Source: a virus. From it: a DNA stretch of 36,249 nt. The notes beneath the pieces were generated by a model. The model searched no databases. It had not been told where the DNA came from and was given only the letters and a program-made list of their open reading frames with translations. A program made the position numbers and the translations under genes. Of the stretch, positions 4,401 to 36,249 are shown piece by piece (positions within the stretch are counted from its first letter, which is position 1; every line of letters starts with the position of its first letter). Location: the IMG/VR virus record IMGVR_UViG_3300020119_000063, positions 1 through 36,249 of that record. The stretch is one strand, 5' to 3'.

Positions 4401-5117
4401 ATGACTTATCTTGCAAGCAATCTTATTGCAGATTCGTATTATTTGAGTGGGATTGTCAGCCGGGAATTTGAAACACCGACCGGCGCGCAGATGAAGGATG
4501 GCCTTCGCCTTTTAAATAACGTATTGGCAGACAGGACTGTTGATGAAGGGACGATTCCCTATACTGACAAATTAATATTGACGGCGAGTGCTGGGGTTTC
4601 CGAATACTTTTTGGAAAACTGTATAGACGTTGATGTATTTGTATTCTATATCCAGTCATTGAGATACCAGACTAGGAACGAACAGCGCCAAGAATTCTTT
4701 GGCAGCTTCCGTCCTACCAATATCCAAAGCTTGCCTTGGAACTGGCACGTTGAGCGCGAATTTGGCGGTTGCCGATTGTTCCTGTATTTTGTCCCAGACA
4801 CTAACTATCCGTTAGAGATTCACGGTAGTTTCAGGCTGGTTTCAGTAACTGAATTCCAAGACTTGTCGCTAACACTCGACGAGTTCTATACGAATTTCCT
4901 GCAATACTTACTGGCTGAACGCCTTTGCCAGTTTAACTCATACAAAGTGCCAATGGATGTCGCTAACCAGCTGCAGAAATATTACAAATGGATTGGCAAC
5001 AACACCAACATCATGGACTTAAGGATGCAAAAATTAAGTTCCTTGAACAATGGCACAGCTATTAATTACGGGCTTGTTAATCTCGGGACAAGTGGATTCT
5101 TGCCGGTAGACTGGTAA
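4401..5117 (+). CDS. Head completion/tail accessory factor, P22 gp4-like
   Basis: 238 residues, after the coat region and before gp10. N-terminal YLASNLIADSYYLSGIVSRE and the following GLRLLNNVLADR segment fit the P22 tail accessory factor family, whose members bind below the portal and retain packaged DNA. It is longer than P22 gp4 (166 residues), as are many distant relatives. I see no lysozyme-like catalytic motif. AGGAG precedes the start. Confidence 0.75.
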   Translation: MTYLASNLIADSYYLSGIVSREFETPTGAQMKDGLRLLNNVLADRTVDEGTIPYTDKLILTASAGVSEYFLENCIDVDVFVFYIQSLRYQTRNEQRQEFFGSFRPTNIQSLPWNWHVEREFGGCRLFLYFVPDTNYPLEIHGSFRLVSVTEFQDLSLTLDEFYTNFLQYLLAERLCQFNSYKVPMDVANQLQKYYKWIGNNTNIMDLRMQKLSSLNNGTAINYGLVNLGTSGFLPVDW

Positions 5118-7032: not shown

Positions 7033-7043
7033 GGAGATTTAAA

Positions 7044-7712
7044 ATGTCATGGTATGACGCATTTAACCCGGTCAACGTTGCCAAGCAAGGTATCAATTTT
7101 ATAACGGGTGGTGGCGACCAAGAAGACCCTATGGCTGCTGCCAATCAATATTTGAAGCAAATCCCCGGTATTGGCCAGAAATACTATAACCCATTTATTG
7201 AAAGCGGCAAGAATGCTGGGAATCTCCTCCAAGGTGAATACGGCAAGTTATTAAACCCGACTTCATTCATTGACGAAATAATGAAACATTACAATGAATC
7301 AGAGGGTTCTAAATACGAACGAAACGAATTAGGCCGAGGGATCGGCGCCACTGCTGCGGCAGGTGGAATAGCAGGGACGCCAGAACATCAGAAAGAATAC
7401 GGAGACATGGCGCAGAAATTAATGTCCCGTGACATGCAAACATTTCTTCAAAATGCGCTTGGTGTTTATGGGACTGGCTTGACTGGCGAGCAAGACATTT
7501 ATGGGAAAGGTTATGAAGCCAGCGGAAATTTGGCTGACATGCTTGGTGGAACATTAGGATCACAAGCTGGCCTTGCATTCCAGTCTGCAAGCCAACGTAA
7601 CGCAAACAAAAATGCCTTGTTCAATGCAATTGCCAAAGCTTTATCTACCGGAGCAGGGGCATATCTTGGCGGTGTTCCCGGTGCAAAAGTGGGTTCTAGT
7701 TTATTTGGATAA
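7044..7712 (+). CDS. DNA ejection protein, P22 gp7-like
   Basis: 222 residues (P22 gp7: 229). Segment IPGIGQKYYNPFIESGKNAG is the classic signature of phage DNA transfer proteins, followed by an Ala/Gly-rich region with FQSASQRNANKNALFNAIAK and a Gly-rich hydrophobic C-terminus (GAYLGGVPGAKVG). The protein is packed in the head and ejected first, helping to build a channel through the envelope. It is first of three ejection genes, and AGGGAG precedes its start. Confidence 0.8.
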   Translation: MSWYDAFNPVNVAKQGINFITGGGDQEDPMAAANQYLKQIPGIGQKYYNPFIESGKNAGNLLQGEYGKLLNPTSFIDEIMKHYNESEGSKYERNELGRGIGATAAAGGIAGTPEHQKEYGDMAQKLMSRDMQTFLQNALGVYGTGLTGEQDIYGKGYEASGNLADMLGGTLGSQAGLAFQSASQRNANKNALFNAIAKALSTGAGAYLGGVPGAKVGSSLFG

Positions 7713-20672: not shown

Positions 20673-20882
20673 TTAGATAACTTTAACATCACTGGCCTGC
20701 AGCCCTTTCTGTCCTTGTACTACGCTGAATTCTACCCGGTCGCCTTCGTTAAGCGTTCTATAACCATCGGCTAAAATCGCACGGTGATGAACGAAGACAT
20801 CTTTGCCTGTATCGCACAGGATAAAACCAAAACCTTTTTTGTTATCAAACCATTTTACAGTCCCTTCTTCGATCTTGTTCAT
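20673..20882 (-). CDS. Cold-shock domain protein
   Basis: 69 residues, the normal length for a CspA-family protein. [15 protein letters not shown] holds RNP1 (KGFGFI, 16-21) and VFVHH (29-33) is RNP2, so the nucleic-acid-binding face is intact. These proteins bind single-stranded RNA/DNA and melt structure in mRNA. AAAGGGAAA precedes the ATG; there is no long cold-responsive leader, so expression is likely tied to the phage operon. It probably aids translation of phage transcripts or interferes with host Csp. Confidence 0.93.
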
Positions 20883-21810: not shown

Positions 21811-22065
21811 TTATAATTCGGTTATTCTAGTGTATTTTATGCCGTGGCATAAATGTCCGTTTGCTTTGTAACAGGAGCAAATATTGCACCAACCGTAATT
21901 CTCTTTAGGCGCTATAGGCGCTATATAAGGCGCAATAAAAGGGTTAGCTGGAATAGTGCCAATCGTCTGGGTCAAACGCTGGCTATTACAACCATTGCAT
22001 TCCACAACAGCCGGTGAATATATCTTGTGACAGCGTGGGCAGCTCCAGCCATTATTATTAGACAT
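21811..22065 (-). CDS. Double zinc-ribbon small protein
   Basis: 84 residues from the ATG at 22065, preceded by a GGGGG-containing site; the longer frame lies within the AdoMetDC-like gene. SCPRCHKIYSPAVVECNGC is a clear CxxC-x(n)-CxxC ribbon, and CNICSCYKANGHLCHG supplies a second cluster. A Pro/Ile linker (IPANPFIAPYIAPIAP) separates them. It overlaps the upstream gene by 8 nt. Unknown function. Confidence 0.68.
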   Translation of the reverse strand: MSNNNGWSCPRCHKIYSPAVVECNGCNSQRLTQTIGTIPANPFIAPYIAPIAPKENYGWCNICSCYKANGHLCHGIKYTRITEL

Positions 22066-22423
22066 GATCGAACCCCCTGATGATGTAATGAACCCGGTGG
22101 CTATTAGCATTAAAGAAATCAACGGTAAAATCTGTAACGGCTTTAATGTCAAATTCCTTGCAGCTGAATAAGTCTATGAAGGCAGAATTAATATCATTTG
22201 CAAAATGCCCGCAGATGTTTGAAGTCTCAATAAGCTGCAGCATTGTGTAACCTTCTTTATTGCCTTCGCCAAAATGGACAATCTGGCAATCACCGAACCG
22301 CTTCATGTCAATCAGCTTACAAAGCTGGATAACATAATCTTGAATTTTTTCTTTCGATCTAATAATTGCTGGATCGCATTGTTTGAGATCCATTGCTAAG
22401 CTATAGCCCCATGCTCCTGACAT
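22058..22423 (-). CDS. S-adenosylmethionine decarboxylase-like protein (SpeD family)
   Basis: 121 residues, the size of class 1B AdoMet decarboxylases. WGYSLAMDLKQCD opens the fold, and LIETSNICGHF followed by AFIDLFSC keeps the order of the self-cleaving Ser (S68), His (H73) and Cys (C88) of the SpeD active site; the canonical ESH is changed to TSN. Cleavage at S68 would make the pyruvoyl group. The enzyme could supply aminopropyl donor for spermidine, or act on another amino acid as some diverged SpeD homologues do. AGGAG precedes the start. Confidence 0.78.
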   Translation of the reverse strand: MSGAWGYSLAMDLKQCDPAIIRSKEKIQDYVIQLCKLIDMKRFGDCQIVHFGEGNKEGYTMLQLIETSNICGHFANDINSAFIDLFSCKEFDIKAVTDFTVDFFNANSHRVHYIIRGFDHV

Positions 22424-26334: not shown

Positions 26335-26519
26335 TATTCAATCGTCCATTCGTGGTCTGGGTCTGGAACAAAAGCCATGCTTGATGCAATCGAACTATGT
26401 ATATCGCATAGTGAGTCTCTTACAATCCATCCCCCTATAACTTTTGCTCTCACCGTTACAAATTGACATGAACTATTATTTCGTTCAAAAATTTCTTCCC
26501 ATCTAAATTCAATTTTCAT
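26334..26519 (-). CDS. Small phage protein with FVPDPDHEW motif
   Basis: 61 residues: KIEFRWEEIFERNNSSCQFV then VIGGWIVRDSL and a C-terminal SMAFVPDPDHEWTIE. The pattern (GGWxVR, then FVPDPxHEW) is a small family frequent in phages. The lipoprotein at 19811 carries the same C-terminal half behind an export signal. Function unknown. Confidence 0.72.
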   Translation of the reverse strand: MKIEFRWEEIFERNNSSCQFVTVRAKVIGGWIVRDSLCDIHSSIASSMAFVPDPDHEWTIE

Positions 26520-26770
26520 TTTTTGTATCTTCCTATATCGTTTAACTTTATTGGGTTACACCAGTGCGTGACTTGCATTCTGTCATTATATTTGTCATCA
26601 AAAAATTCCCATTCACCATCTCGATATAAAGCCATAAAATAAAAATCCGAGCATTCATCTTTGTTGATACATCTGACTGGCATGTAATCTTTTATTCCCG
26701 GCAAGAAATCATTCACATCAAACCAAGTTCTAACATGTGGTGCATTTGCAATCCGATAAGGATTATCCAT
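26516..26770 (-). CDS. DUF551-like protein
   Basis: 84 residues from ATG 26770, directly after the previous TAG and near GAGAAG; the upstream ATG at 26782 adds four residues. TWFDVNDFLPGIKDYMPVRC, DGEWEFFD and VTHWCNP follow the DUF551 order (W-x-x-V-LP, a central EW, terminal THW-x-x-P), more diverged than the copy at 17689. Unknown function. Confidence 0.65.
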   Translation of the reverse strand: MDNPYRIANAPHVRTWFDVNDFLPGIKDYMPVRCINKDECSDFYFMALYRDGEWEFFDDKYNDRMQVTHWCNPIKLNDIGRYKK

Positions 26771-26771
26771 T

Positions 26772-26939
26772 CTACTTCTCATCCCTTTGCTTATTTAAAA
26801 AGAACCGTGCGCTACAGGCAATCAATTTAACCACGTCAAAGTCGTTAATGTCGTGGAATAGCTCAGTCCATTGGTCGTCGGTGTAGGTTTTAAACTTTTG
26901 CAGCATTTCTTTGTAGGGGTCGAATATTTCTTTATTCAT
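26772..26939 (-). CDS. 55-residue helical protein of unknown function
   Basis: MNKEIFDPYKEMLQKFKTYT then DDQWTELFHDINDFDVVKLI, with a basic C-terminus. All-helical, charged. It is spaced 3 nt from the upstream stop and 1 nt from the next start. No recognised family. Confidence 0.58.
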   Translation of the reverse strand: MNKEIFDPYKEMLQKFKTYTDDQWTELFHDINDFDVVKLIACSARFFLNKQRDEK

Positions 26940-26942
26940 TTT

Positions 26943-27203
26943 TCAAACCTCATAATATTCTTTAGTTGGGATATTCCACTTTTCACAGTATGGATTGAAT
27001 ACGTTATTTCGTAATAATGGATGCAGTCCCCACTCTGATTCTGGACGTGTTGATAATACATATCTTAAATACTTTTCGATAATATAATCTGGTGGGAATT
27101 TCATTATTTCATCATGCCAGATTTTAGATTCCCCAAATAATATGCTAAGAAAAGCCATTATGTTTTTTATCTGGTCGTGGACTGATAAAGATTGATCTAC
27201 CAT
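26943..27203 (-). CDS. 86-residue protein of unknown function
   Basis: IKNIMAFLSILFGESKIWHD then FPPDYIIEKYLRYVLSTRPE: helical with several aromatic residues and no transmembrane segment long enough to be certain. Similar SKIWHDxxxxFPPDYIxEKYxRY strings occur in phage hypothetical proteins. Function unknown. Confidence 0.68.
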   Translation of the reverse strand: MVDQSLSVHDQIKNIMAFLSILFGESKIWHDEIMKFPPDYIIEKYLRYVLSTRPESEWGLHPLLRNNVFNPYCEKWNIPTKEYYEV

Positions 27204-27289
27204 TTGCTAAACCTCATAAAATAAATCAGTACCAAAAAAAATATAAGCACTAGCCATGTTTCTGACAAACAATCAATGAGTATTTCCAC
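27197..27289 (-). CDS. 30-residue membrane peptide, GTG start
   Basis: GTG start 8 nt after AAGGTG, inside the end of the upstream gene. The product (VEILIDCLSETWLVLIFFLV then LIYFMRFSKW) is one hydrophobic helix with a basic end and overlaps the next gene by 7 nt. Confidence 0.42.
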   Translation of the reverse strand: MEILIDCLSETWLVLIFFLVLIYFMRFSKW

Positions 27290-27575
27290 TGGTGTGCACC
27301 TTTGATTTTAAATCAAGAAAACGCATTAAGCTGACTTCATTCATCTTTGTCAAAAACTTTTCAGGGTCGAAGTTTTTAAATAGTTCATCGTGCAGCATCA
27401 TCATGTTTGTTATAACCATTGTAATGGTTGAAACAGTTATTGATAGGCAAACCAAAGGATCTGGATGCAAGCTCATCAGTTTTTCATTCATTAATTCAGT
27501 AATTTCTCCCGAAACCTCTCCCATCGTGGGAAAGGTTTTGTCACTTAAATCTCCCACTTCTTTCAATCCTGTCAT
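27273..27575 (-). CDS. 100-residue protein with a hydrophobic segment
   Basis: The N-terminal half is acidic (SGEITELMNEKLMSLHPDPL), followed by VCLSITVSTITMVITNMMML, long enough for one membrane helix, and a charged helix. AAGGAT precedes the start. It may be a membrane-anchored phage factor; no family is recognised. Confidence 0.62.
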   Translation of the reverse strand: MTGLKEVGDLSDKTFPTMGEVSGEITELMNEKLMSLHPDPLVCLSITVSTITMVITNMMMLHDELFKNFDPEKFLTKMNEVSLMRFLDLKSKVHTSGNTH

Positions 27576-27584
27576 TTTCGATCC

Positions 27585-27680
27585 TTATTTTCCGAGAATT
27601 TTCAAAATTACCCAGCAGATAGCTGATAAAACGAATATAGTGCAGTAAAGAATAACTATAAATCCAATGATAGCGCCCAT
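27585..27680 (-). CDS. 31-residue membrane peptide
   Basis: MGAIIGFIVILYCTIFVLSA then ICWVILKILGK: a single hydrophobic helix with a Lys-tipped end. The gap between neighbours is otherwise empty and exactly accommodates it. The ribosome-binding site is weak (AGAAGTAAAG). Confidence 0.48.
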   Translation of the reverse strand: MGAIIGFIVILYCTIFVLSAICWVILKILGK

Positions 27681-27686
27681 TATTCT

Positions 27687-27920
27687 TTACTTCTCATGTA
27701 ATTTATTTAGCTTAGTTTGCTCATTAAGCTTAATTCTTTCGAATTCAACCCAATCAAATAAAGCTTGATCCGAAATTAATTCAAGTACTTTTTCAATCAA
27801 TTCATCATTGTCGCATTCATGCAGTATATGCAAAATATTATCTATAGCTTCTCTATCAGGGTGATTGTCGATCCTTTCGTTATTCCACTTTTGTGATGCG
27901 TAATGAAGTTCATGTGTCAT
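27687..27920 (-). CDS. 77-residue acidic helical protein
   Basis: EAIDNILHILHECDNDELIE then KVLELISDQALFDWVEFERI: all-helical, net acidic. AAGGTAG precedes the ATG. The charge and fold could suit a protein-binding inhibitor or DNA mimic, but nothing specific supports that. Unknown family. Confidence 0.62.
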   Translation of the reverse strand: MTHELHYASQKWNNERIDNHPDREAIDNILHILHECDNDELIEKVLELISDQALFDWVEFERIKLNEQTKLNKLHEK

Positions 27921-27925
27921 GTTTA

Positions 27926-28144
27926 CTACCTTTTAATAAGTCGCGGCTTGAATTCTTTTTTAACCCATTGTTCGCGCGGTATGACTTCAAAGGTTAAATC
28001 AGGATTTTTGAGATTTAGTTTATCTTTCCAGAACTCAGCATCAGCTCTATTTAAAAAAGTATCGCAATAATGCTGGCTTAAGTAATTGTCTCTTACATAC
28101 CAAGCTTCGCCGTCAATATCGGTTTTTATGGTGAACATTTCCAC
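27926..28144 (-). CDS. 72-residue protein of unknown function
   Basis: GTG at 28144 is chosen because GAGGAGTGATTG lies 8 nt upstream, in exactly the arrangement used by the next gene (28248). ATG 28138 or GTG 28153 are alternatives. The sequence FTIKTDIDGEAWYVRDNYLS then ADAEFWKDKLNLKNPDLTFE looks like a small alpha/beta protein ending in basic residues. Confidence 0.6.
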   Translation of the reverse strand: MEMFTIKTDIDGEAWYVRDNYLSQHYCDTFLNRADAEFWKDKLNLKNPDLTFEVIPREQWVKKEFKPRLIKR

Positions 28145-28149
28145 TTCAA

Positions 28150-28248
28150 TCACTCCTCAAATTCGCATTGGCAATCTTCAGCGTCGGATTTGCAACGTCT
28201 GCATGTTTCTACCATCTCGCCTTTGTCTTCGTCGTAATATTCGCTCAT
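28150..28248 (-). CDS. 32-residue Cys-rich acidic peptide
   Basis: MSEYYDEDKGEMVETCRRCK then SDAEDCQCEFEE. Four Cys (CxxC and CxC) could bind one zinc. The GAGGAGTGATTG leader is a 12-nt repeat of the one before the downstream gene. It lies just after the hairpin at 28284 in the direction of transcription. Confidence 0.55.
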   Translation of the reverse strand: MSEYYDEDKGEMVETCRRCKSDAEDCQCEFEE

Positions 28249-28283
28249 TACAATCACTCCTCGTTATGCGTGTCATAGTTAAA

Positions 28284-28299
28284 GCCCCTTTCGGGGGTC
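28284..28299 (-). terminator. GAAA-tetraloop hairpin, possible attenuator
   Basis: On the minus strand CCCC, a GAAA tetraloop and GGGG are followed by CTTTAAC. The stem is short but GC-only with a very stable loop. It separates the first gene of the leftward operon from the rest, so it may act as a weak terminator, attenuator or processing point. Confidence 0.5.
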
Positions 28300-28304
28300 T
28301 GTTA

Positions 28305-28565
28305 TTAATTAATAATTGCCTGCGTAACATAATTTGTTCGGTTTACGTCTTCTTGATAAAGGCTGATAATCTTTTTTTGTTGAAGCTGACTTAAATAGCC
28401 CTCAACTTGCTTGGGGCTTAAGCCTTCCACTTCCAAGAATTTTGTTTGTTTTCTTGGGCGCATTGTCCCGTAGCAAACTATCGCGAATTCGCCGCCTGTT
28501 TCATCGATGGCATTTTGCTTGATAGCGTCTAAAACCTTTTGTTCGTTTGCGTTTAATGCTGTCAT
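28305..28565 (-). CDS. Winged-helix-like regulator candidate, first leftward gene
   Basis: 86 residues. LNANEQKVLDAIKQNAIDET then LSPKQVEGYLSQLQQKKIIS reads as a helix followed by a helix-turn-helix with QLQQKKII as recognition helix and wing start, like small MarR- or replication-type wHTH proteins. It is the first gene after the 28.6 kb promoter and the nearest candidate for an autoregulator that would bind the palindrome there. Confidence 0.65.
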   Translation of the reverse strand: MTALNANEQKVLDAIKQNAIDETGGEFAIVCYGTMRPRKQTKFLEVEGLSPKQVEGYLSQLQQKKIISLYQEDVNRTNYVTQAIIN

Positions 28566-28580
28566 GTTATTACCCTTAGT

Positions 28581-28601
28581 TATGCGTCAATATGCGCATA
28601 T
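28581..28601. promoter_or_regulatory. Operator-like palindrome at the leftward promoter
   Basis: ATATGCGCATAT (28590-28601) is a perfect 12-bp palindrome that touches the -10 element. TATGCG at 28581-28586 adds a further inverted half site to CGCATA. The placement fits repression by a dimeric DNA-binding protein. Confidence 0.5.
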
Positions 28602-28628
28602 CCTAAAGATTATTAAGCGCGAGGTCAA
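28600..28628 (-). promoter_or_regulatory. Leftward early promoter
   Basis: On the minus strand TTGACC, a 17-nt spacer and TAGGAT form a sigma70-type promoter 35 nt before the first gene of the 12-kb leftward operon. The -35 box is near-consensus and the spacing is optimal. Confidence 0.65.
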
Positions 28629-28780
28629 GCGTTAAATTAAATTAATTTCATCGAAATCGAGAGTTTTAGATTGGCCATTAATAAGGCAGGAGTGGGGCTT
28701 GTGTGCATAAAATAAGATCATGTTGCAGTTTACAAAATAAAGGCGGAAGCGTATCGTTGATGGACTTGATTTAAGGTTTA

Positions 28781-28862
28781 TTAGGTAGGTCGGCGCTGAA
28801 TGCTATCAACGCCGTCTAAAAAACAAGGAAATACGATAAGCGATGTCGTAAATCCTACCTAA
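28781..28862 (+). ncRNA. Three-way-junction RNA candidate in the rightward leader
   Basis: P1 pairs TTAGGTAGG (28781-28789) with CCTACCTAA (28854-28862). P2 pairs CGGCG with CGCCG plus an inner TGA/TCA. P3 pairs TACGATA with TGTCGTA around an AGCGA loop. A 17-nt A-rich strand joins P2 and P3. It ends 85 nt before the replication gene. A weak promoter (TTGATG-16-TATTAG, 28757-28784) overlaps its 5' side. The 382-nt interval 28566-28947 holds no gene; it contains this element and the leftward promoter. Confidence 0.5.
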
Positions 28863-28947
28863 GTAATCTTCGGAAATCAATAGAATTGAACAAGGCTGGC
28901 GAAAGTCGGTTTTGTTTACCCTTACAAAGCATTAAAAGGAATTAACT

Positions 28948-29658
28948 ATGGAATCGTTTTCTGACAACGTTAACCTGAAATTTACACTTGAACAATATTT
29001 TCGCAGTACAGAATCATTTGAGCATGAATGGATCACAGCATCTTTTATAGCCGTAGTAATTGAAATTGCATCATTAATAACCATGAATAGCAGCCGTAAC
29101 GATGACCCAATGTGTGATTTATCGTGTTCAAAAATTGGCAAGACGGTCAGGTTATCCGAAAGAACGGTCAGACGAGAATTGAATAAAGCTTGTTCAGTTG
29201 GGATGTTTGAAAAGACAGGCACGACATGGGATGGCAGATTGATAATTGAAGCGGGCAAATGGTTTAAAGATAGACAGTCTGCGGGCAAAGTGGTTAATAA
29301 ACGCAGGGCTGTGGATAAGTGCGGGACTGTTAGTAACCCTGTGTATAACTCACCCCCCCCCGGACACAGTGACCTACCCCCCCCGGACATGGTGACCGCA
29401 CCCCCCGGACACAATGGCCGACATATAACTAATGCTTTAACTAATTCTTTTACTAAACCTCTAGTAGCGCAACAAGGTGTGAATAATATGAACAAACTTG
29501 AAAAGCAAAGCGAACCGCCAGAACCAAAACCAGAACCGCAGCCATATTCAGGCTTATTAAAAAAACCGAGTTATTTGACTAACAGCAATGAGCATTGTAA
29601 GACCGCTATGCAAATAATGAGTGAAAAATTAGGCAGACCTTTAAATTACAGGACATAG
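28948..29658 (+). CDS. Replication initiation-like protein with HTH
   Basis: 236 residues. Residues 60-90 (SCSKIGKTVRLSERTVRREL) form a helix-turn-helix of the kind in phage O-type replication proteins, followed by a wing. A Pro/Gly linker (about 134-157) is encoded by three C-tracts. The C-terminal part is Pro/Glu-rich with a short helix at the end that might contact a helicase or loader. AAGGA precedes the start. As with lambda O, the origin may lie inside this gene. Confidence 0.72.
   Translation: MESFSDNVNLKFTLEQYFRSTESFEHEWITASFIAVVIEIASLITMNSSRNDDPMCDLSCSKIGKTVRLSERTVRRELNKACSVGMFEKTGTTWDGRLIIEAGKWFKDRQSAGKVVNKRRAVDKCGTVSNPVYNSPPPGHSDLPPPDMVTAPPGHNGRHITNALTNSFTKPLVAQQGVNNMNKLEKQSEPPEPKPEPQPYSGLLKKPSYLTNSNEHCKTAMQIMSEKLGRPLNYRT
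29353..29420 (+). repeat. Three GC-rich iterons inside the replication gene
   Basis: Runs of nine, eight and six C, each followed by GGACA, then a GTGACC or related segment, recur with periods of 23 and 22 bp (GGACA at 29362, 29385 and 29407). The unit CCCCGGACA-N-N-GTGACC is well kept in the first two and changed in the third. Iterons in the O gene form the origin of lambdoid phages, so an origin is a reasonable inference. Confidence 0.6.
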
Positions 29659-29662
29659 ACCA

Positions 29663-29902
29663 GTGAACAATGATGAAGATGATGAAATTGCATACGACAT
29701 TCCCCTTTCTGGGAACGTTAGAGCGGGATTTGTACGATGTATAGACAGCAGTAAAGAAAAGCGGTGGGTGAGGATTACTGAAATTAAGACGATAGCACCG
29801 ATGAACGATAATGCTTGCATGATATCGACTTACAAAGACACGTACTATGTCGCTTTGATTTCTGACGATGAACTTTTGGATCTGATTGAAGGGGGCTGTT
29901 GA
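29663..29902 (+). CDS. 79-residue protein of unknown function, GTG start
   Basis: NNDEDDEIAYDIPLSGNVRA opens an acidic N-terminus, then VRITEIKTIAPMNDNACMIS and TYKDTYYVALISDDELLDLI give a small beta-rich domain similar in outline to LytTR-like or FlbD-like strands, not a firm match. It lies between replication genes and ends 1 nt before the next ATG. Confidence 0.6.
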   Translation: MNNDEDDEIAYDIPLSGNVRAGFVRCIDSSKEKRWVRITEIKTIAPMNDNACMISTYKDTYYVALISDDELLDLIEGGC

Positions 29903-29903
29903 G

Positions 29904-30446
29904 ATGGTTTGGGATGATACACCGATGTATGAACGAAACCGTGAACCCAAGGCGGAGAATTTAACCGTGGTTAAACGAGGCGTCCCTTGGGCATATGAAG
30001 TGCTGGGTAAGTCGCGTGGCATTCCTACGGGCGCTCCTAGCCCGATATACGCATGGTTTCACCGGGAAGCTGCCAAGCGGGCTAAAGGCCAAGACAATGA
30101 AATCGACCGGGCAGAGATAATCCAAGCTGCAAAAGGTGTCAGAAACAAGTGGTCTGATCGATATAAGGCCAATCCAGCCAAGTTTAAGCCTATTGTCAAT
30201 CCGATGAAAGACGAATCGAAGGTCGATTGGGCGGATGTTTTGGCGGATATCCCTAGCACAAAGCCCAAAGAAGAAATTGCAACTGCAAAATCTAATTTGC
30301 AATTGCAAAAAGCAGCCGAGCCTGAAATACCAATTTGGTGTGAATCGGTAGCAAATCAGGAAGAAGTGGAATTTCTGCCTGAATTTGGGCAAAATGAGGA
30401 CAGTAGTTGGATAGATGCTGAAATGGCTGACCTGTCTTGGGGTTAA
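29904..30446 (+). CDS. Replication-region protein of unknown function
   Basis: 180 residues from ATG 29904, preceded by GAAGGGGG. VVKRGVPWAYEVLGKSRGIP then SPIYAWFHREAAKRAKGQDN is a basic helical domain; the C-terminal half is acidic with Trp-containing motifs (VDWADVLADIP, SSWIDAEMADLSWG). The position after an O-like protein suggests a helicase-loader or partner, as lambda P follows O, but there is no P-loop and no sequence proof. Confidence 0.6.
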   Translation: MVWDDTPMYERNREPKAENLTVVKRGVPWAYEVLGKSRGIPTGAPSPIYAWFHREAAKRAKGQDNEIDRAEIIQAAKGVRNKWSDRYKANPAKFKPIVNPMKDESKVDWADVLADIPSTKPKEEIATAKSNLQLQKAAEPEIPIWCESVANQEEVEFLPEFGQNEDSSWIDAEMADLSWG

Positions 30447-30452
30447 CCCTAG

Positions 30453-30487
30453 TTATCCAAAGACTTATCCACAGAATCTGGGGATAA
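30453..30487. promoter_or_regulatory. DnaA box cluster
   Basis: TTATCCAAA (30453-30461), the perfect box TTATCCACA (30465-30473) and, inverted, TGGGGATAA (30479-30487) occupy 35 bp in the 119-nt gap before the 30566 gene. This points to host DnaA binding, either for replication start or transcription control. Confidence 0.7.
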
Positions 30488-30490
30488 CTT

Positions 30491-30517
30491 GTGAAACAAT
30501 AGTACATTATGTTTCAC
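30491..30517. promoter_or_regulatory. Inverted repeat of parS-like half sites
   Basis: GTGAAACA (30491-30498) and TGTTTCAC (30510-30517) form a perfect 8-bp inverted repeat with an 11-nt spacer. The chromosomal parS consensus is TGTTTCACGTGAAACA, so these are both half sites in the opposite order. It lies 3 nt from the DnaA boxes. Confidence 0.55.
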
Positions 30518-30565
30518 GGACAAAATTTAAGTAATACGGCCATTTAACGGCCAAAAGGAATTGAC

Positions 30566-30772
30566 ATGACCACCAAACGCAAAGCCTACGTTGCCCACAG
30601 CCTATCTGAGCTACGGCGGCTGTACGCTTCAGGAATCGACGCAACACTTGCCCCTGCTGCTGAGCCGTTTCTCAAGGAAAAGGGCTGCAACGACCAACCA
30701 CTTAAACCCACGGACGGGTCAAATGAAAAAACGAATAGTGACGCTGCCGCCGATAGTTCCGACGGAGTATGA
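30566..30772 (+). CDS. 68-residue protein of unknown function
   Basis: KRKAYVAHSLSELRRLYASG is a basic helix; the rest is low-complexity Ala/Asp/Ser. AAAAGGAATTGAC precedes the ATG. The gene runs 50 nt into the VRR-NUC gene in another frame. The composition suggests a disordered tail. No family is recognised. Confidence 0.55.
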   Translation: MTTKRKAYVAHSLSELRRLYASGIDATLAPAAEPFLKEKGCNDQPLKPTDGSNEKTNSDAAADSSDGV

Positions 30773-31115
30773 AGAACAGGCAAAGCTGTGCGATTATTTG
30801 ACATATAAGGGGCTTTTGTACTTCGCTATTCCTAACGGCGAGAAACGTCATTTAGGCACAGCGATGAAGCTAAAGCGCACGGGGGTGAAGGCAGGTGTAC
30901 CAGATATTTTTATCCCGATGCCGAACAATGGCTATCACGGTTTGTTTATTGAGCTTAAGCGCTGCAAGGGTGGCACTGTTAGCCTCACCCAACGCCAGTG
31001 GATCGAGGCGCTAAAGGTTCAGGGGTATTGCGCGAAGGTCTGCAAGGGCGCAGAAGATGCAATAAAACTAGTTAATGATTATTTTTACAAGGCAAAAGAT
31101 AATGCCCAAATTTAG
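30723..31115 (+). CDS. VRR-NUC domain endonuclease
   Basis: 130 residues from ATG 30723; the longer frame upstream lacks family residues. EEQAKLCDYLTYKG, IPNGEKRHLGTAMKLKRTGV, AGVPDIFIP (D61) and LFIELKR (E77, K79) then GGTVSLTQRQW are the ordered motifs of the VRR-NUC PD-(D/E)XK family, usual length for stand-alone phage versions. These nucleases probably cut branched or flap DNA and may resolve replication or packaging intermediates. Confidence 0.9.
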   Translation: MKKRIVTLPPIVPTEYEEQAKLCDYLTYKGLLYFAIPNGEKRHLGTAMKLKRTGVKAGVPDIFIPMPNNGYHGLFIELKRCKGGTVSLTQRQWIEALKVQGYCAKVCKGAEDAIKLVNDYFYKAKDNAQI

Positions 31116-31524
31116 TGACCTATCAATCCAACGACTAGCCACTTGTCATTCTGACCTGCAGCTGTTGTTTAACGTGGTCATCCAGACAATCGACTGTACC
31201 ATCATCGAAGGGCATCGCGGCCAAGCAGCGCAAGAAGTCGCCTTCTTAAACGGCAATTCAAAGCTGCCATTTCCCTACGGCAAGCACAACAAGCTTCCCA
31301 GTATGGCGGTAGATGTCGCGCCTTTTCCAGTCCCTGCGTGGGAGAGAATCGCCGACTTCGTGTATTTTGGCGGCCTAGTCATGGGAATTGCCATGCGTTT
31401 GAAGGCAGAAGGCAAAATGACTTATGATCTAAGGTACGGGGGTGATTTTAACGAGAACTTCAGGATCTCAGATAGCAAGCTGACTGATTGCGTTCACTTT
31501 GAACTTAAGGAGCTGAAGCCATGA
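31102..31524 (+). CDS. Endolysin, M15 (VanY-like) peptidase
   Basis: 140 residues from ATG 31102. IIEGHRGQAAQEVAFLNGNS, then KHNKLPSMAVDVAP (H62, D71) and DCVHFEL (H132), give the H-D-H zinc ligand set of M15 peptidases that cut the L-Ala-D-Glu or crosslink peptides of peptidoglycan. No signal peptide is present, so export needs a holin. Overlap with the next membrane protein (ATGA) forms a lysis pair. Confidence 0.88.
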   Translation: MPKFSDLSIQRLATCHSDLQLLFNVVIQTIDCTIIEGHRGQAAQEVAFLNGNSKLPFPYGKHNKLPSMAVDVAPFPVPAWERIADFVYFGGLVMGIAMRLKAEGKMTYDLRYGGDFNENFRISDSKLTDCVHFELKELKP

Positions 31525-31769
31525 ATTTAATGGAGATGCTGAAGAAAGTCTTCCCAAAGCCCAATATTCCCCAAAAACGTTATCTGGCTTTAATCGGCAT
31601 GGTCATTTACATGGCTGCCAAAGTTTATGTCACGATGACGCCTAACCCGGTTGATGATGCCTACCCAGACGCAGCCCGTGATCTGGTCGTGAAGTATTTC
31701 GCAAATGCTGCAGATGACCCGGACAATCACGAAGACAGTGACAATCGCAATTTTGGCGAAACGTCATAA
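31521..31769 (+). CDS. Holin-like small membrane protein
   Basis: 82 residues with one hydrophobic helix at about 22-40 (LALIGMVIYMAAKVYVTM) after a basic N-terminus, and an acidic tail (NAADDPDNHEDSDN). It follows the endolysin with a 4-nt overlap. A single helix and placement fit a class III holin or pinholin-type protein, but a spanin or other membrane protein is possible. Confidence 0.6.
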   Translation: MNLMEMLKKVFPKPNIPQKRYLALIGMVIYMAAKVYVTMTPNPVDDAYPDAARDLVVKYFANAADDPDNHEDSDNRNFGETS

Positions 31770-31771
31770 TT

Positions 31772-31799
31772 TTGTACTGGTGAGAAAGTACGCTATACT
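31772..31799 (+). promoter_or_regulatory. Probable late promoter
   Basis: TTGTAC, a 16-nt spacer and TATACT lie 40 nt before the next gene, in the 69-nt gap between the lysis genes and the terminase-proximal genes. The -10 is one base from consensus. It could drive the entire late block round to the terminator at 16.8 kb. Confidence 0.55.
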
Positions 31800-31838
31800 T
31801 ATGCGCGTGTTCCACAAAGAACAATTTAAGGAATTAAA

Positions 31839-32000
31839 ATGAAACGCTGCAGGACGTGCTTCGGACAGAAATATATTAACGGCATGGGCAACATGCGCGA
31901 GAAATGCCATGACTGTAAAGGTAAAGGATTTGTAAGCGAAGAAGAACCCCTCAAAGTAAATGCAAAAGAAAAAACCAAAAAGAGCGCTTATGAAGAATAA
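31839..32000 (+). CDS. 53-residue DnaJ-type zinc finger protein
   Basis: MKRCRTCFGQKYINGMGNMR then EKCHDCKGKGFVSEEE: two CxxC pairs 16 residues apart, the second in the CxxCxGxG form of DnaJ cysteine-rich repeats. A Lys-rich tail follows. AAGGAA precedes the start. Such minimal proteins recur in phages; function unknown. Confidence 0.7.
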   Translation: MKRCRTCFGQKYINGMGNMREKCHDCKGKGFVSEEEPLKVNAKEKTKKSAYEE

Positions 32001-33276
32001 CTTGGCAGAAATTGAACAAATGCCTAAATTATTTCGAGAATATAAAATCCAAGATGTCGATTTAATTGAAAATTTTGCACAGAATTCTCGTACGCATAGT
32101 GAAGAACAAATACAGGAAGTAGTCAAGAGTATTGATGAGTTTGGGTTTACTAATCCATTACTGGTCGATGAAAATAATATATTGATTGCTGGTCATTGCA
32201 GGCTTGAGGCCGCAAAGCGTATCGGCTTGAAGCAAATTCCGACAGTTATAATTAATGATTTGACTGAAGTTCAAAAAGCGGCGCTGGTTATTGCTGATAA
32301 TAAAATGGCGCTTAACGCTGGCTGGGATTTCACTAAACTTTCAGAACAAATAACCTTCCTGCAAGATAATGACTTTGATATTGCGCTCACTGGCTTTCAT
32401 GCCGATGAACTCACATTCATGCCGCAAGAAGTGCCAGCATTTATTGGTGATGAAGATGATGTGCCTGAAGCACCTGTTGAACCGATTACTAAGCGTGGGA
32501 ATGTTTGGCTGTTAGGCGAGCATAGATTGATGTGCGGCGACTCGACCATGATTGATGATGTTGAGAAGCTGATGAATGGGCAAAAGGCACAAATTTGTTT
32601 TACGTCACCTCCTTATAATCTTGGCGATAATGCAAAAATGCGCGGCAATAATGCAAGCGGTAAAGATAGTGCTTATAATGAAAGATCAGATCATAAAACA
32701 CAGCAAGAATATTTAGATTTTCTCTATTCATTTACAAATAATGTTCTACTTGTTAGTGATATTGCTTTCATCAACATACAATGTTTAGCCGGAAATAAAC
32801 TTATATTCCCTGAATACTTGCACCAATACAAAGATAATATCGTTGATATAATGGTTTGGGATAAAGAATATGGCGCACCAGCAATGCCGAAAAAAGTTCT
32901 AAATTCAGCTTTTGAATTTATTATAATAATTTCAGCCAGTAAAAATCCAAATCGTACTATTTTCACAGCACCAGATTTCAGAGGTACTATAAGCAATATC
33001 TACAGGCTTAATCCGCAAGGAAAGAAAGAAGAAATACAAAAAGACCATGGCGCGGTATTTCCTGTAAAGTTTGCAGAGGATCATATAAAACAGTTTTCAA
33101 CTGGTAATGTATATGAACCATTTGGTGGTACTGGAACAACAGTCATAGCATCAGAAAAACTTAACCGAAAATGCTATATGATGGAACTATCACCAAATTA
33201 TTGCGACGTTATAATAAAACGTTACGAACAATTCACAGGCAAAAAAGCAGAGTTGGAGAAAAACAATGTCACATAA
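31990..33276 (+). CDS. ParB-nuclease domain fused to DNA methyltransferase
   Basis: 428 residues from ATG 31990 (31960 is an alternative). Residues 20-110 are a ParB/sulfiredoxin-type domain (IENFAQNSRTHSEEQIQEV, ILIAGHCRLEAAKRIG with GHCR at 68-71). From 165 comes a beta-class methyltransferase: motif IV TSPPY (205-209) precedes motif I EPFGGTG (376-382). N6-adenine or N4-cytosine methylation is expected. Many phages carry this fusion beside terminase. It could protect phage DNA from restriction or mark pac sites. Confidence 0.9.
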   Translation: MKNNLAEIEQMPKLFREYKIQDVDLIENFAQNSRTHSEEQIQEVVKSIDEFGFTNPLLVDENNILIAGHCRLEAAKRIGLKQIPTVIINDLTEVQKAALVIADNKMALNAGWDFTKLSEQITFLQDNDFDIALTGFHADELTFMPQEVPAFIGDEDDVPEAPVEPITKRGNVWLLGEHRLMCGDSTMIDDVEKLMNGQKAQICFTSPPYNLGDNAKMRGNNASGKDSAYNERSDHKTQQEYLDFLYSFTNNVLLVSDIAFINIQCLAGNKLIFPEYLHQYKDNIVDIMVWDKEYGAPAMPKKVLNSAFEFIIIISASKNPNRTIFTAPDFRGTISNIYRLNPQGKKEEIQKDHGAVFPVKFAEDHIKQFSTGNVYEPFGGTGTTVIASEKLNRKCYMMELSPNYCDVIIKRYEQFTGKKAELEKNNVT

Positions 33277-33619
33277 TCCAACATCAGAAACTCGCGCACA
33301 AGTTGCTGCATTAAAAAGCTATGGACATACGCACGATGAGATAGCTAAATATCTAGATATTCATACTGAAACATTGGCGTTTCATTATTCTCGCGAACTT
33401 GCTACTGCACAGATAACTGCAAATGCTGAAGTAGCCCGCAGGCTTTATAACAAAGCCACAAAAAGCAATGATCTGTCAGCACAGATTTTCTGGCTTAAGA
33501 CTCGTGCTAGATGGCGTACACAGGATGAAAGAACTTTAGAAGAAGAAAACGCAGACCTTAAAAAAGAGATGATTGCGCTGCGCGAACAGTTGGACGCTAA
33601 AAACAAGAAAGAGTATTGA
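33266..33619 (+). CDS. Terminase small subunit
   Basis: 117 residues. AALKSYGHTHDEIAKYLDIH then TETLAFHYSRELATAQI is a helix-turn-helix, followed by ARRLYNKATKSNDLSAQIFW and LKTRARW, a pattern of small terminases of P22-like and related phages. A coiled-coil tail ends the protein. It recognises packaging sites and activates TerL. It overlaps the methyltransferase by 11 nt and shares a base with TerL (TGATG). Confidence 0.85.
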   Translation: MSHNPTSETRAQVAALKSYGHTHDEIAKYLDIHTETLAFHYSRELATAQITANAEVARRLYNKATKSNDLSAQIFWLKTRARWRTQDERTLEEENADLKKEMIALREQLDAKNKKEY

Positions 33620-35169
33620 TGTCAAAAATTGATCTTGAAAAAGAACAAATGGCCTCGCGCCTTCGCGGTTCGCTTCAAGAATTCACAAAGTTTTTTACTA
33701 AGCACATTACTAATCGTGATTATATTGAATCCCAGCCAGTAGGCAGAGAATCACACCAGATAAGCATTTGTCGTGAACTCACATCATTTACTCGTATGGA
33801 ACATCCAAACGAGAATTTGATGATTAACGTAGAGCCGGGATCCGGAAAGTCCTTGCAGATTTGTATGTGGGTTGCTTGGTGCTATACGTGGAATGACCAA
33901 TGCAACTTCATTTACATATCGCACAGCCAAACGCTCGCTGCAGAGCAAACAGCTTTTATCAAAATGATAATGTCCTCTGCGATGTTCGGGTATTTGTTTG
34001 ATGTTTATATTGCCAAAGACACGAAAGCCAAAGACCACTTTGCAACAACTGCAGGCGGCCATGTGGCAGCGTTCGGTTCTGAAGGCGCAATCGTTGGTCG
34101 TAATGCTGGCTTGCCCGGCCAAGATATATTTTCGGGCGCAGTTGTCATCGATGACGCTCACAAACCTGATGAAGCTTTTAGTGACACGATGCGCGAAAAG
34201 GTTATTCGAAATTATGAAACAACAATACGGCAACGTCCTCGCGGCGAAAACGTTCCAATCATATTTATTGGCCAGCGCGTACATGAAGCAGACCTTGCTG
34301 CGTTCCTGATTGAAGGCAATGACATCAAGCCTTGGCGCAAAGTTATCTTGAAGGCTTTGGACGATGCCGGTAATGCTTTATATCCTGAAGTCCATTCGAA
34401 AGAATATTTGCTGGAGCTGCAAGATAAATCGCCATACGTTTTTGCCAGTCAATTTCAGCAGGAACCAACGCCAGCAGGCGGTGCGGTCTTCAGACCAGAA
34501 TGGTTTATTGAATTAGATCGTGAACCTGAAATGATCCTGACGTTCCTGACAGCTGACACCGCAGAAACGGCAAAGAATTATAACGACCCGACGGCTGTAA
34601 GTTTCTGGGGACTGTATGAGATTGAAGTGTTCGGGAAAAAGACCGGCCAGCTAGCATTGCATTGGCTAGACGCTATTGAAGAATGGCTTGAACCGAAAGA
34701 CCTTGAAGAACGCTTCATAGACTTTTGGCGCGAATGTTCTAGGTTTAAAGTGCCGCCGTTGATGGCTGCCATCGAAAAGAAATCAACAGGTGTGACGCTA
34801 ATCAGTACCCTAAACCAAATCCAAGGCATTAAGATTAAAGACGTGCAGAGAACGGTTGTTTCAGGAACAAAGGCAAAGCGCTATGTTGAGATGCAACCAT
34901 TCATTGCCAGTAAGCGCGTGACCTTCAGTCGTGGCGCTCGGCATGTCCAGTTATGCAAAAAGCACATGAGTAAAATTACCCTGAACGATTCCCACCGCCA
35001 TGATGACTTGGCAGATACATGCTACGATGCGGTTAAAATTGCCCTTATTGACAAGTCGTTGCATAATCTTAGAGCGAACGAAAGCCCAGCAAATGACGTA
35101 ATGAACAGCATAGCCCAGCAGATGCGCCGCCAACAGGCATTAAGGATGAATAGAGATGGCATACGTTAA
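33619..35169 (+). CDS. Terminase large subunit
   Basis: 516 residues from ATG 33619. The Walker A-like EPGSGKS (72-78), Walker B VVIDDA (175-180) and RNase-H nuclease motif LTADTAET (D313) are in order, and DDLADTCYDAVKIAL near the C-terminus supplies a nuclease Asp pair. It translocates DNA and makes the headful cut; the nearest architecture is a P22 gp2-type terminase. The end overlaps portal by 14 nt. Confidence 0.95.
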   Translation: MSKIDLEKEQMASRLRGSLQEFTKFFTKHITNRDYIESQPVGRESHQISICRELTSFTRMEHPNENLMINVEPGSGKSLQICMWVAWCYTWNDQCNFIYISHSQTLAAEQTAFIKMIMSSAMFGYLFDVYIAKDTKAKDHFATTAGGHVAAFGSEGAIVGRNAGLPGQDIFSGAVVIDDAHKPDEAFSDTMREKVIRNYETTIRQRPRGENVPIIFIGQRVHEADLAAFLIEGNDIKPWRKVILKALDDAGNALYPEVHSKEYLLELQDKSPYVFASQFQQEPTPAGGAVFRPEWFIELDREPEMILTFLTADTAETAKNYNDPTAVSFWGLYEIEVFGKKTGQLALHWLDAIEEWLEPKDLEERFIDFWRECSRFKVPPLMAAIEKKSTGVTLISTLNQIQGIKIKDVQRTVVSGTKAKRYVEMQPFIASKRVTFSRGARHVQLCKKHMSKITLNDSHRHDDLADTCYDAVKIALIDKSLHNLRANESPANDVMNSIAQQMRRQQALRMNRDGIR

Positions 35170-36249
35170 AAAGGAAGCGCGAGACAATTTTGACATTATC
35201 AAAGGCGACATCGAGAAAGGCTACCTGTACTTTAAAAAGAATTATCGAACTTACAATGAGTTCATGCGCTTTGTCTTTAAAACGTCCCTGACAAATGCGG
35301 ATAGATCGGTAAACAATGAAATCCAAAAGCCTAACATGGAGTTTAATATCCTAGAGGCGTTCATTAGTCGGTTGTGCGGTGAGTTTTCCAAGATGGATCC
35401 AGCGTTTACCGTTCGCGCCAAAGAAGGCGTCAACCTGATTAATCCTGACATCATTGAACTGGTCGAAGCGCACTTGATGGCCGCATTCTCTGGCGGTGAT
35501 AAGAATTCCCTTAGCTATCAGCTTTATCGCCGTATTCTGTCTGGCGGTTATGCTGTGGCAAAACTCTTTACTGAATACTCTGGTGAAATGGCATTTGAGC
35601 AGCGTATTTGTGTTGAGCCTGTATTTGATGACACTCTGACCGTTTTTGATCCTTTAGCACGTAAATCGCACAAGGGTGACGGCCGCTTTGCTTGCGAACT
35701 CTTTCCGAAAGCTGCGGATGAAGCCGTTGAAACGTATGGGTCTGACATCCTGAAAAACGTCAAGTTTACTCGCAATAGTAACGTTGCAGGGTTTAATTGG
35801 TCTTATCGAAACCAGAAAGAAGACATCTTGCTGTTTGCTGAATACTTCAAAAAGAAGATGAAGAAGACCAAGATTTTAAAACTTGCCAATGGCCATTCAG
35901 TTACTGAAAAGCAATACGAAGAATTTTTGCAACGTTGGGAAAAGGCAGGCTATATCGAGCAAGCGCCTATTGTTATCAAATCTCGTGAAACCGAAATCAC
36001 AATGATTGACATGTATACGATCACTGGCAATAAGATTGTTGACCATAAAGAAACAAATTTCTCTATGCTGCCGCTGGTGTTCTTTGACGGGAACAGCGTA
36101 ATTATTCGTGATAGTAACGATGCACAAGCCGAGCAAGTTGTACGGCCATATGTTTACCATGCTCGTGACACACAGAAGATGAAGAACTTTGCCGGGCAAT
36201 CTCTTTGTAATGAAATCGAAAACCTTGTGCAGCATAAATGGAAAGCGCC
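35156..36249 (+). CDS. Portal protein, N-terminal part (continues at base 3)
   Basis: Starts MAYVKKEARDNFDIIKGDIE and includes NKxNxEFNILEAFISRLCGE-type portal core (FNILEAFISRLCGEFSKMDP), then DTLTVFDPLARKSHKGDGRF and QKEDILLFAEYFKKKMKKTK. The frame is open to the end of the window and matches the left-end part in sequence and phase, giving 715 residues in total. It is a P22-type portal, larger than HK97-type portals. It overlaps TerL by 14 nt. Confidence 0.93.
   Translation, partial: MAYVKKEARDNFDIIKGDIEKGYLYFKKNYRTYNEFMRFVFKTSLTNADRSVNNEIQKPNMEFNILEAFISRLCGEFSKMDPAFTVRAKEGVNLINPDIIELVEAHLMAAFSGGDKNSLSYQLYRRILSGGYAVAKLFTEYSGEMAFEQRICVEPVFDDTLTVFDPLARKSHKGDGRFACELFPKAADEAVETYGSDILKNVKFTRNSNVAGFNWSYRNQKEDILLFAEYFKKKMKKTKILKLANGHSVTEKQYEEFLQRWEKAGYIEQAPIVIKSRETEITMIDMYTITGNKIVDHKETNFSMLPLVFFDGNSVIIRDSNDAQAEQVVRPYVYHARDTQKMKNFAGQSLCNEIENLVQHKWKA
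36123..36249. repeat. Right copy of 127-bp terminal duplication
   Basis: Identical to bases 1-127. Removing one copy closes the circle at 36,122 bp within the portal gene. Confidence 0.95.

Follow-up and report, generated by a model that had tools for sequence, protein, structure and literature searches.

A structured RNA with retained pairing in the untranslated leader of a phage replication operon

The stretch of viral DNA analysed here, a record of 36,249 bases (hereafter the window), carries a 127-nt terminal repeat of its own start, and contig L017 crosses the record join with 99.96-99.97% identity. The record is therefore a circular assembly of about 36,122 bp. It comes from a tailed phage with a gene layout resembling that of epsilon15/phiV10. 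Two operons diverge from an intergenic gap of 382 nt (28566-28947). The leftward operon carries an exonuclease VIII-like gene, together with genes for an S-adenosylmethionine decarboxylase (22058-22423, minus strand) and a cold shock protein (20673-20882, minus strand). The first gene of the rightward operon is an O-like replication initiation gene (28948-29658, plus strand; phrog_391, E 8e-4), and its ribosome-binding site (AAGGAA) and start codon can be read in the sequence at 28936-28950 (plus strand). It is followed by a VRR nuclease, an endolysin-like protein, a ParB-methyltransferase fusion (31960-33276, an N6/N4 DNA methylase with a fused ParB N-terminal domain), the terminase, the portal and head genes. 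All genes from O through the terminase (28948-36249), and onward to 16766, are read rightward. They form a one-way unit of about 24 kb with replication, lysis, packaging and structural genes, within which a scan found no strong internal terminator. Searches with PF00589 (tyrosine integrase) and PF01381 (HTH_3, CI-type repressor) gave nothing above cut-off in the window or in 11 relatives, several of which are fragments. We take the phage to be virulent, on an integrase search that covered the tyrosine type.

Other features were recorded around the gap. Inside the O-like gene, three C-rich direct repeats CCCCCCGGACAYRRTGRCC at 29354-29421, spaced by about 24 nt, resemble the iterons of the lambda ori. 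At the other side of the gap, a block at 28580-28605 with the palindrome ATATGCGCATAT adjoins a predicted leftward promoter (TTGACC-17-TAGGAT, minus strand) and is probably an operator. Relatives were gathered by terminase alignment (80 loci). In the nearest of them that has this region, L087, the palindrome block is conserved and the O-like gene has repeats of its own (GAGCTGCACCC, near 7596-7663). Contig L165, whose terminase is 77% identical, is filed under a Peregrinibacteria MAG, which probably reflects a binning error and not the host.

Inside the divergent region, 85 nt upstream of the O-like gene, the plus strand folds into a compact three-way junction at 28781-28862. Its closing helix P1 is made of TTAGGTAGG (28781-28789) and CCTACCTAA (28854-28862), which pair perfectly through nine Watson-Crick pairs. 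Hairpin P2 (28791-28814) has five base pairs (CGGCG/CGCCG), a C.A mismatch, three base pairs (TGA/TCA) and a loop of 6 nt (ATGCTA). Hairpin P3 (28832-28850) has seven base pairs (TACGATA/TGTCGTA), one of them U.G, and a 5-nt loop. The motif AAAAAACAAGGAAATACGATA (28818-28838) lies between the two hairpins and reaches into the 5′ strand of P3. An earlier note, made from the sequence, had described a nine-pair P1 enclosing two hairpins in 82 nt, outside any gene, in the 5′ region of the rightward operon. This description proved exact: all helices are where it placed them, no ORF of at least 40 aa crosses the element (only chance frames of 20-25 codons do), and the region ahead of the O-like gene is a structured non-coding leader. 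The minimum free energy of the element is -26.8 kcal/mol (z -4.1), a value that none of 200 dinucleotide shuffles equals. By z, it ranks second among 1764 segments of 82 nt scanned along the plus strand of the genome, with the caveat that the segment was framed on the element. The top-ranked fold of the genome scan is at 2290-2380, immediately ahead of the major head gene, and its hairpin takes in the ribosome-binding site of that gene (GGAGAG; z -4.5). No tRNA-like structure was found.

The best promoter-like pair of the region, TTTACA-17 nt-TATCGT at 28729-28757 (plus strand), lies upstream of the element. It matches the consensus at 9 of 12 positions, where chance alone yields one or two such sites per 700 nt, and it is conserved in L087. 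This candidate early promoter would place the transcription start at 28763-28764, 6-7 nt past the -10 hexamer, and not downstream of 28,862, the outcome that the earlier note had named as fatal to its proposal. Folding of the predicted transcript from 28764 extends P1 outward, in both minimum-energy and centroid folds, through two strands at 28766-28778 and 28865-28880. Positions 28766-28772 (TTGATTT) pair with 28874-28880 (AAATCAA) and 28773-28778 (AAGGTT) with 28865-28870 (AATCTT), with a 2x2 internal loop. The 82-nt box is thus too small, being the tip of a longer helix. The folded leader runs from about 28766 to 28880, with the helix setting in about 2 nt past the predicted start. Past the junction, and still ahead of the O-like gene, a further hairpin at 28887-28918 (plus strand) has 14 base pairs, a GAAA loop, a U-rich 3′ arm and an energy of -18 kcal/mol; because five of its pairs are G.U, it is an RNA-sense structure. 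P1, P2 and P3 stand as first described, whereas the outward extension and this downstream hairpin had been missed. Over the 190 nt ahead of the O-like gene, the z value is -5.2 in the sense orientation versus -1.7 in antisense, and several G.U pairs of the leader would become A.C on the opposite strand. For the bare 82-nt core, folding of the minus strand is marginally more favourable (-28.9 versus -26.8 kcal/mol). The leftward operon has a short leader only, without comparable structure.

The inter-operon region of L087, whose terminase and exonuclease are 81% and 74% identical to those of the window, is colinear with the region described above. It contains a three-way junction of 80 nt (7099-7178), 76 nt ahead of its own O-like gene (phrog_391 match at 9e-9). 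In P1 and P2 taken together, 8 of the 16 comparable pairs are changed on both sides and none is broken, a covariation that is partly built in since the L087 helix was located through a helix search. P1 accounts for five changes in nine pairs and P2 for three in seven, with the C.A mismatch and the three pairs above it retained. P3 is the weak point of this conservation: it is poorly kept, and at its position in L087 there is only a stem of 5 bp that closes a 22-nt loop. A comparable outward extension of P1 folds in L087, and no counterpart of the 28887-28918 hairpin was seen there. The promoter-like pair of L087 (TTTACA-17-TAGCGT, 7038-7066) is colinear with that of the window and lies in a block conserved between both phages. 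L087 carries AAAAAACAGAAATCCGATA where the window has AAAAAACAAGGAAATACGATA, and the primary motif AAAAAACA(n)GAAATnCGATA between P2 and P3 is common to both. A covariance model built from the window element alone (R1) ranked 7099-7178 first in the L087 intergenic region, on the plus strand and with exact P1 boundaries, at 11.6 bits versus 5.0 for the next best match. Over 1.07 Mb of relatives, R1 gave no confident member beyond itself, L087 being recovered in the small search only. In these two sequences, pairing is retained while the letters change, through changes on both sides of the helices; this answers the objection, raised in the earlier note, that no homologues might keep the pairs.

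Smaller junctions, of 60-62 nt and with a P1 of 10 bp, were found in the replication-gene leader of two further relatives, L098 and L099, which form a second lineage. They lie 155 and 147 nt, respectively, ahead of the next rightward gene, which in L099 encodes a primase-like protein. Between these two sequences, 6 of the 20 pairs are changed on both sides and none is broken, with P1 and P2 read from a sequence-based alignment. That alignment of the element already gives two two-sided changes in P1 with no broken pair. P3 needs an alignment shift of one column, after which four of its five pairs are compensatory. In L099, a rightward gene apparently ends just ahead of the junction, and promoter proximity is therefore not universal. 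These junctions may be homologous to the window element or merely alike in plan. A covariance model of this pair (R2) matched nothing but its two founders, and the covariation as a whole comes from two lineages with four sequences between them, a number too small for statistics of the R-scape type. About 210 nt of the leader (L098 3182-3388, L099 55-260) are 74% conserved between the two phages and show several more hairpins beyond the junction; this is possibly a larger structured RNA. In another relative, L093, the region upstream of the O-like gene (4567-4657) has mutually exclusive long stems, TTGATTAT... versus TTGATTATAGCTACTAGGT, both pairing with ...CTATAATCAA, which look like an attenuator or a switch.

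The fair control for chance is a count in shuffled regions rather than the L087 covariation. We counted junctions with a P1 of at least nine Watson-Crick pairs and two hairpins within at most 90 nt in 388 intergenic regions of the phage group (108 kb). On the plus strand, five were observed, the window included, versus 0.175 expected from shuffles. Divergent intergenic regions alone gave two versus 0.05 expected, a count that leaves out the window's own region, whose left neighbour is masked by a spurious ORF. L099 is an additional case of this architecture, clipped by the contig start. Sequence searches were less productive. Protein searches of viral contigs with the O-like, winged-helix and VRR-NUC proteins gave no close relatives. 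Exact P1 and 15-mer patterns in viral contigs matched coding sequence or unrelated repeats, none with the element interior, and blastn of the region or of the leaders against phage and plasmid records returned nothing meaningful. No additional phage with such a leader was seen among the exonuclease relatives examined, and a sequence match in L088 was rejected, being coding-like and without such a fold. As structure outlives sequence here, sequence-based family searches will miss relatives.

Overall, the data show that the untranslated leader of the rightward operon, which carries the replication genes, contains a structured RNA whose pairing is under selection. Since no Rfam family matches it, this RNA probably represents a new control element. 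For its function, we tentatively put first, though short of even likelihood, a cis-acting leader RNA that would be put-like in position and role without being a member of put. The promoter, the start site and the action in cis are inferred. Once RNA polymerase has moved a few nucleotides past the early right promoter, the nascent transcript would fold into a long interrupted P1 that ends in the three-way junction and its two hairpins. The leader would then act in cis on its own transcript or on its polymerase, securing expression of the operon. Once folded, it may bind the elongating RNA polymerase or recruit a factor to it, and the outcome would be less pausing and termination across the rightward unit of about 24 kb. 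Put-like action is ranked first because of the position, the size and the long one-way unit ahead. The conserved pairing, the enrichment over shuffles, the sense bias and the predicted promoter proximity argue for it. We hold it no more firmly because a closing helix is absent from put and the leftward leader has no such structure; the position in L099 and the weak P3 in L087 also count against it.

Two other functions for the RNA are nearly as likely as put-like action. One is a binding leader, a possibility of lesser weight, in which the junction would be bound by the O-like protein, another phage protein, an RNA-binding protein of the host or a small molecule. Binding would set how the O-like gene is transcribed or translated, and the 28887-28918 hairpin would be the expression platform. 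It would fit a compact junction followed by a hairpin with a U-rich arm just ahead of the ribosome-binding site, and a conserved sequence motif within the junction. However, the downstream hairpin was not seen in L087, the junction loops have no significant pairing to the downstream leader and no Rfam riboswitch matches. The other, somewhat doubtful, is a 5′ stabiliser: a helix that begins about 2 nt into the transcript would shield the operon mRNA from 5′-end-dependent decay without any specific partner. The predicted 5′ end just ahead of a long helix points this way, as does the conservation of pairing in P1 and P2 with little conservation of their sequence. A plain hairpin would suffice for such a role, however, and the conserved junction, the C.A mismatch and the AAAAAACA...GAAAT.CGATA motif suggest greater specificity.

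Three further explanations are improbable. In the DNA-level one, which is unlikely, the inverted repeats would form an operator or a cruciform or would belong to a replication origin, and RNA pairing would be incidental. The repeats do fold on both strands, with the core slightly favouring the minus strand, and the GC skew turns near the leader. Against this, the complete leader is much more strongly folded in the sense orientation, with G.U pairs, and the O-like gene itself contains the iteron-like repeats to which O probably binds (about 29354-29421); the iteron-like repeats and the sense-biased fold together make a DNA origin at the element unlikely. Also with little in its favour is an antisense or immunity RNA that would be cut out of the leader, in the style of P4 CI or P1/P7 C4, and would pair with flanking sequences. 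Leader position, size and multi-stem shape are like those of these systems (PMC4825925, PMC5320573), but a duplex search against shuffled flanks found no significant complementarity of the loops to the leader on either side (best p 0.09), neither an integrase nor a CI-type repressor was detected in the phage or its 11 relatives (several of them fragments), and Rfam gave no C4 match. The earlier note had proposed a riboregulator, a copy-control RNA or a protein-binding leader, which are three different mechanisms; the structured leader holds, and the same results on loop pairing and lysogeny genes speak against a copy-control or immunity RNA that acts by base pairing. A functionless chance fold is very improbable. 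The exact version occurs in only two close sequences, and the L087 covariation came from a helix search; yet five junctions were observed where 0.175 were expected, the blind alignment of L098 and L099 gives two compensatory P1 pairs with none broken, and the element ranks second of 1764 segments.

Returning to put-like action, few self-acting structured leader RNAs over phage early operons are known (put, P4 CI, C4). The element shares a compact junction in a 5′ leader with riboswitch and leader families, whereas none of the Rfam 15 families reaches its gathering score on it. Permissive matches were at chance level, the top one being PreQ1 with 16 bits versus 39, which bears out the earlier remark that no riboswitch could be recognised. 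The C4 antisense RNA of P1/P7 is a multi-stem phage RNA of about 77 nt (PMC5320573). The element is similar in size and multi-stem shape; it differs in that the C4 covariance model (RF01695) did not match it even at E 10, and in having neither target pairing nor evidence of RNase P processing. In satellite phage P4, the CI RNA is likewise structured and lies in the untranslated leader ahead of replication genes (PMC4825925), but the present leader has no seqA/seqC-like complementary sites and no detected lysogeny genes. The closest parallel is HK022, where putL, about 70 nt with two stem-loops, lies just downstream of the early promoter and acts over at least 10 kb with no dedicated protein, and where put is found at both early promoters (PMC9378689). 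R1 did not match HK022 26500-33500 (the O-gene region, which may hold putR), nor did blastn return a phage record. The likeness to putL and putR is one of size (about 70-80 nt), two stem-loops, proximity to an early promoter (here predicted) and a long operon ahead. The differences are that the leftward leader here has no such element, and that put has no closing helix whereas the 9-bp P1 and its extension, which close the three-way junction, are here the most prominent part. With some hesitation, we consider a new class of leader RNA, kept in structure rather than in sequence in two or more lineages of a small podovirus-like group of uncultured phages. It would control how the replication operon is entered, possibly by antitermination that needs no protein and differs from that of put. 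If so, a structure-conserved leader in lytic phages that have no CI-type repressor would enlarge the set formed by put, P4 CI and C4, and would offer a small RNA for direct tests of transcription and translation control.
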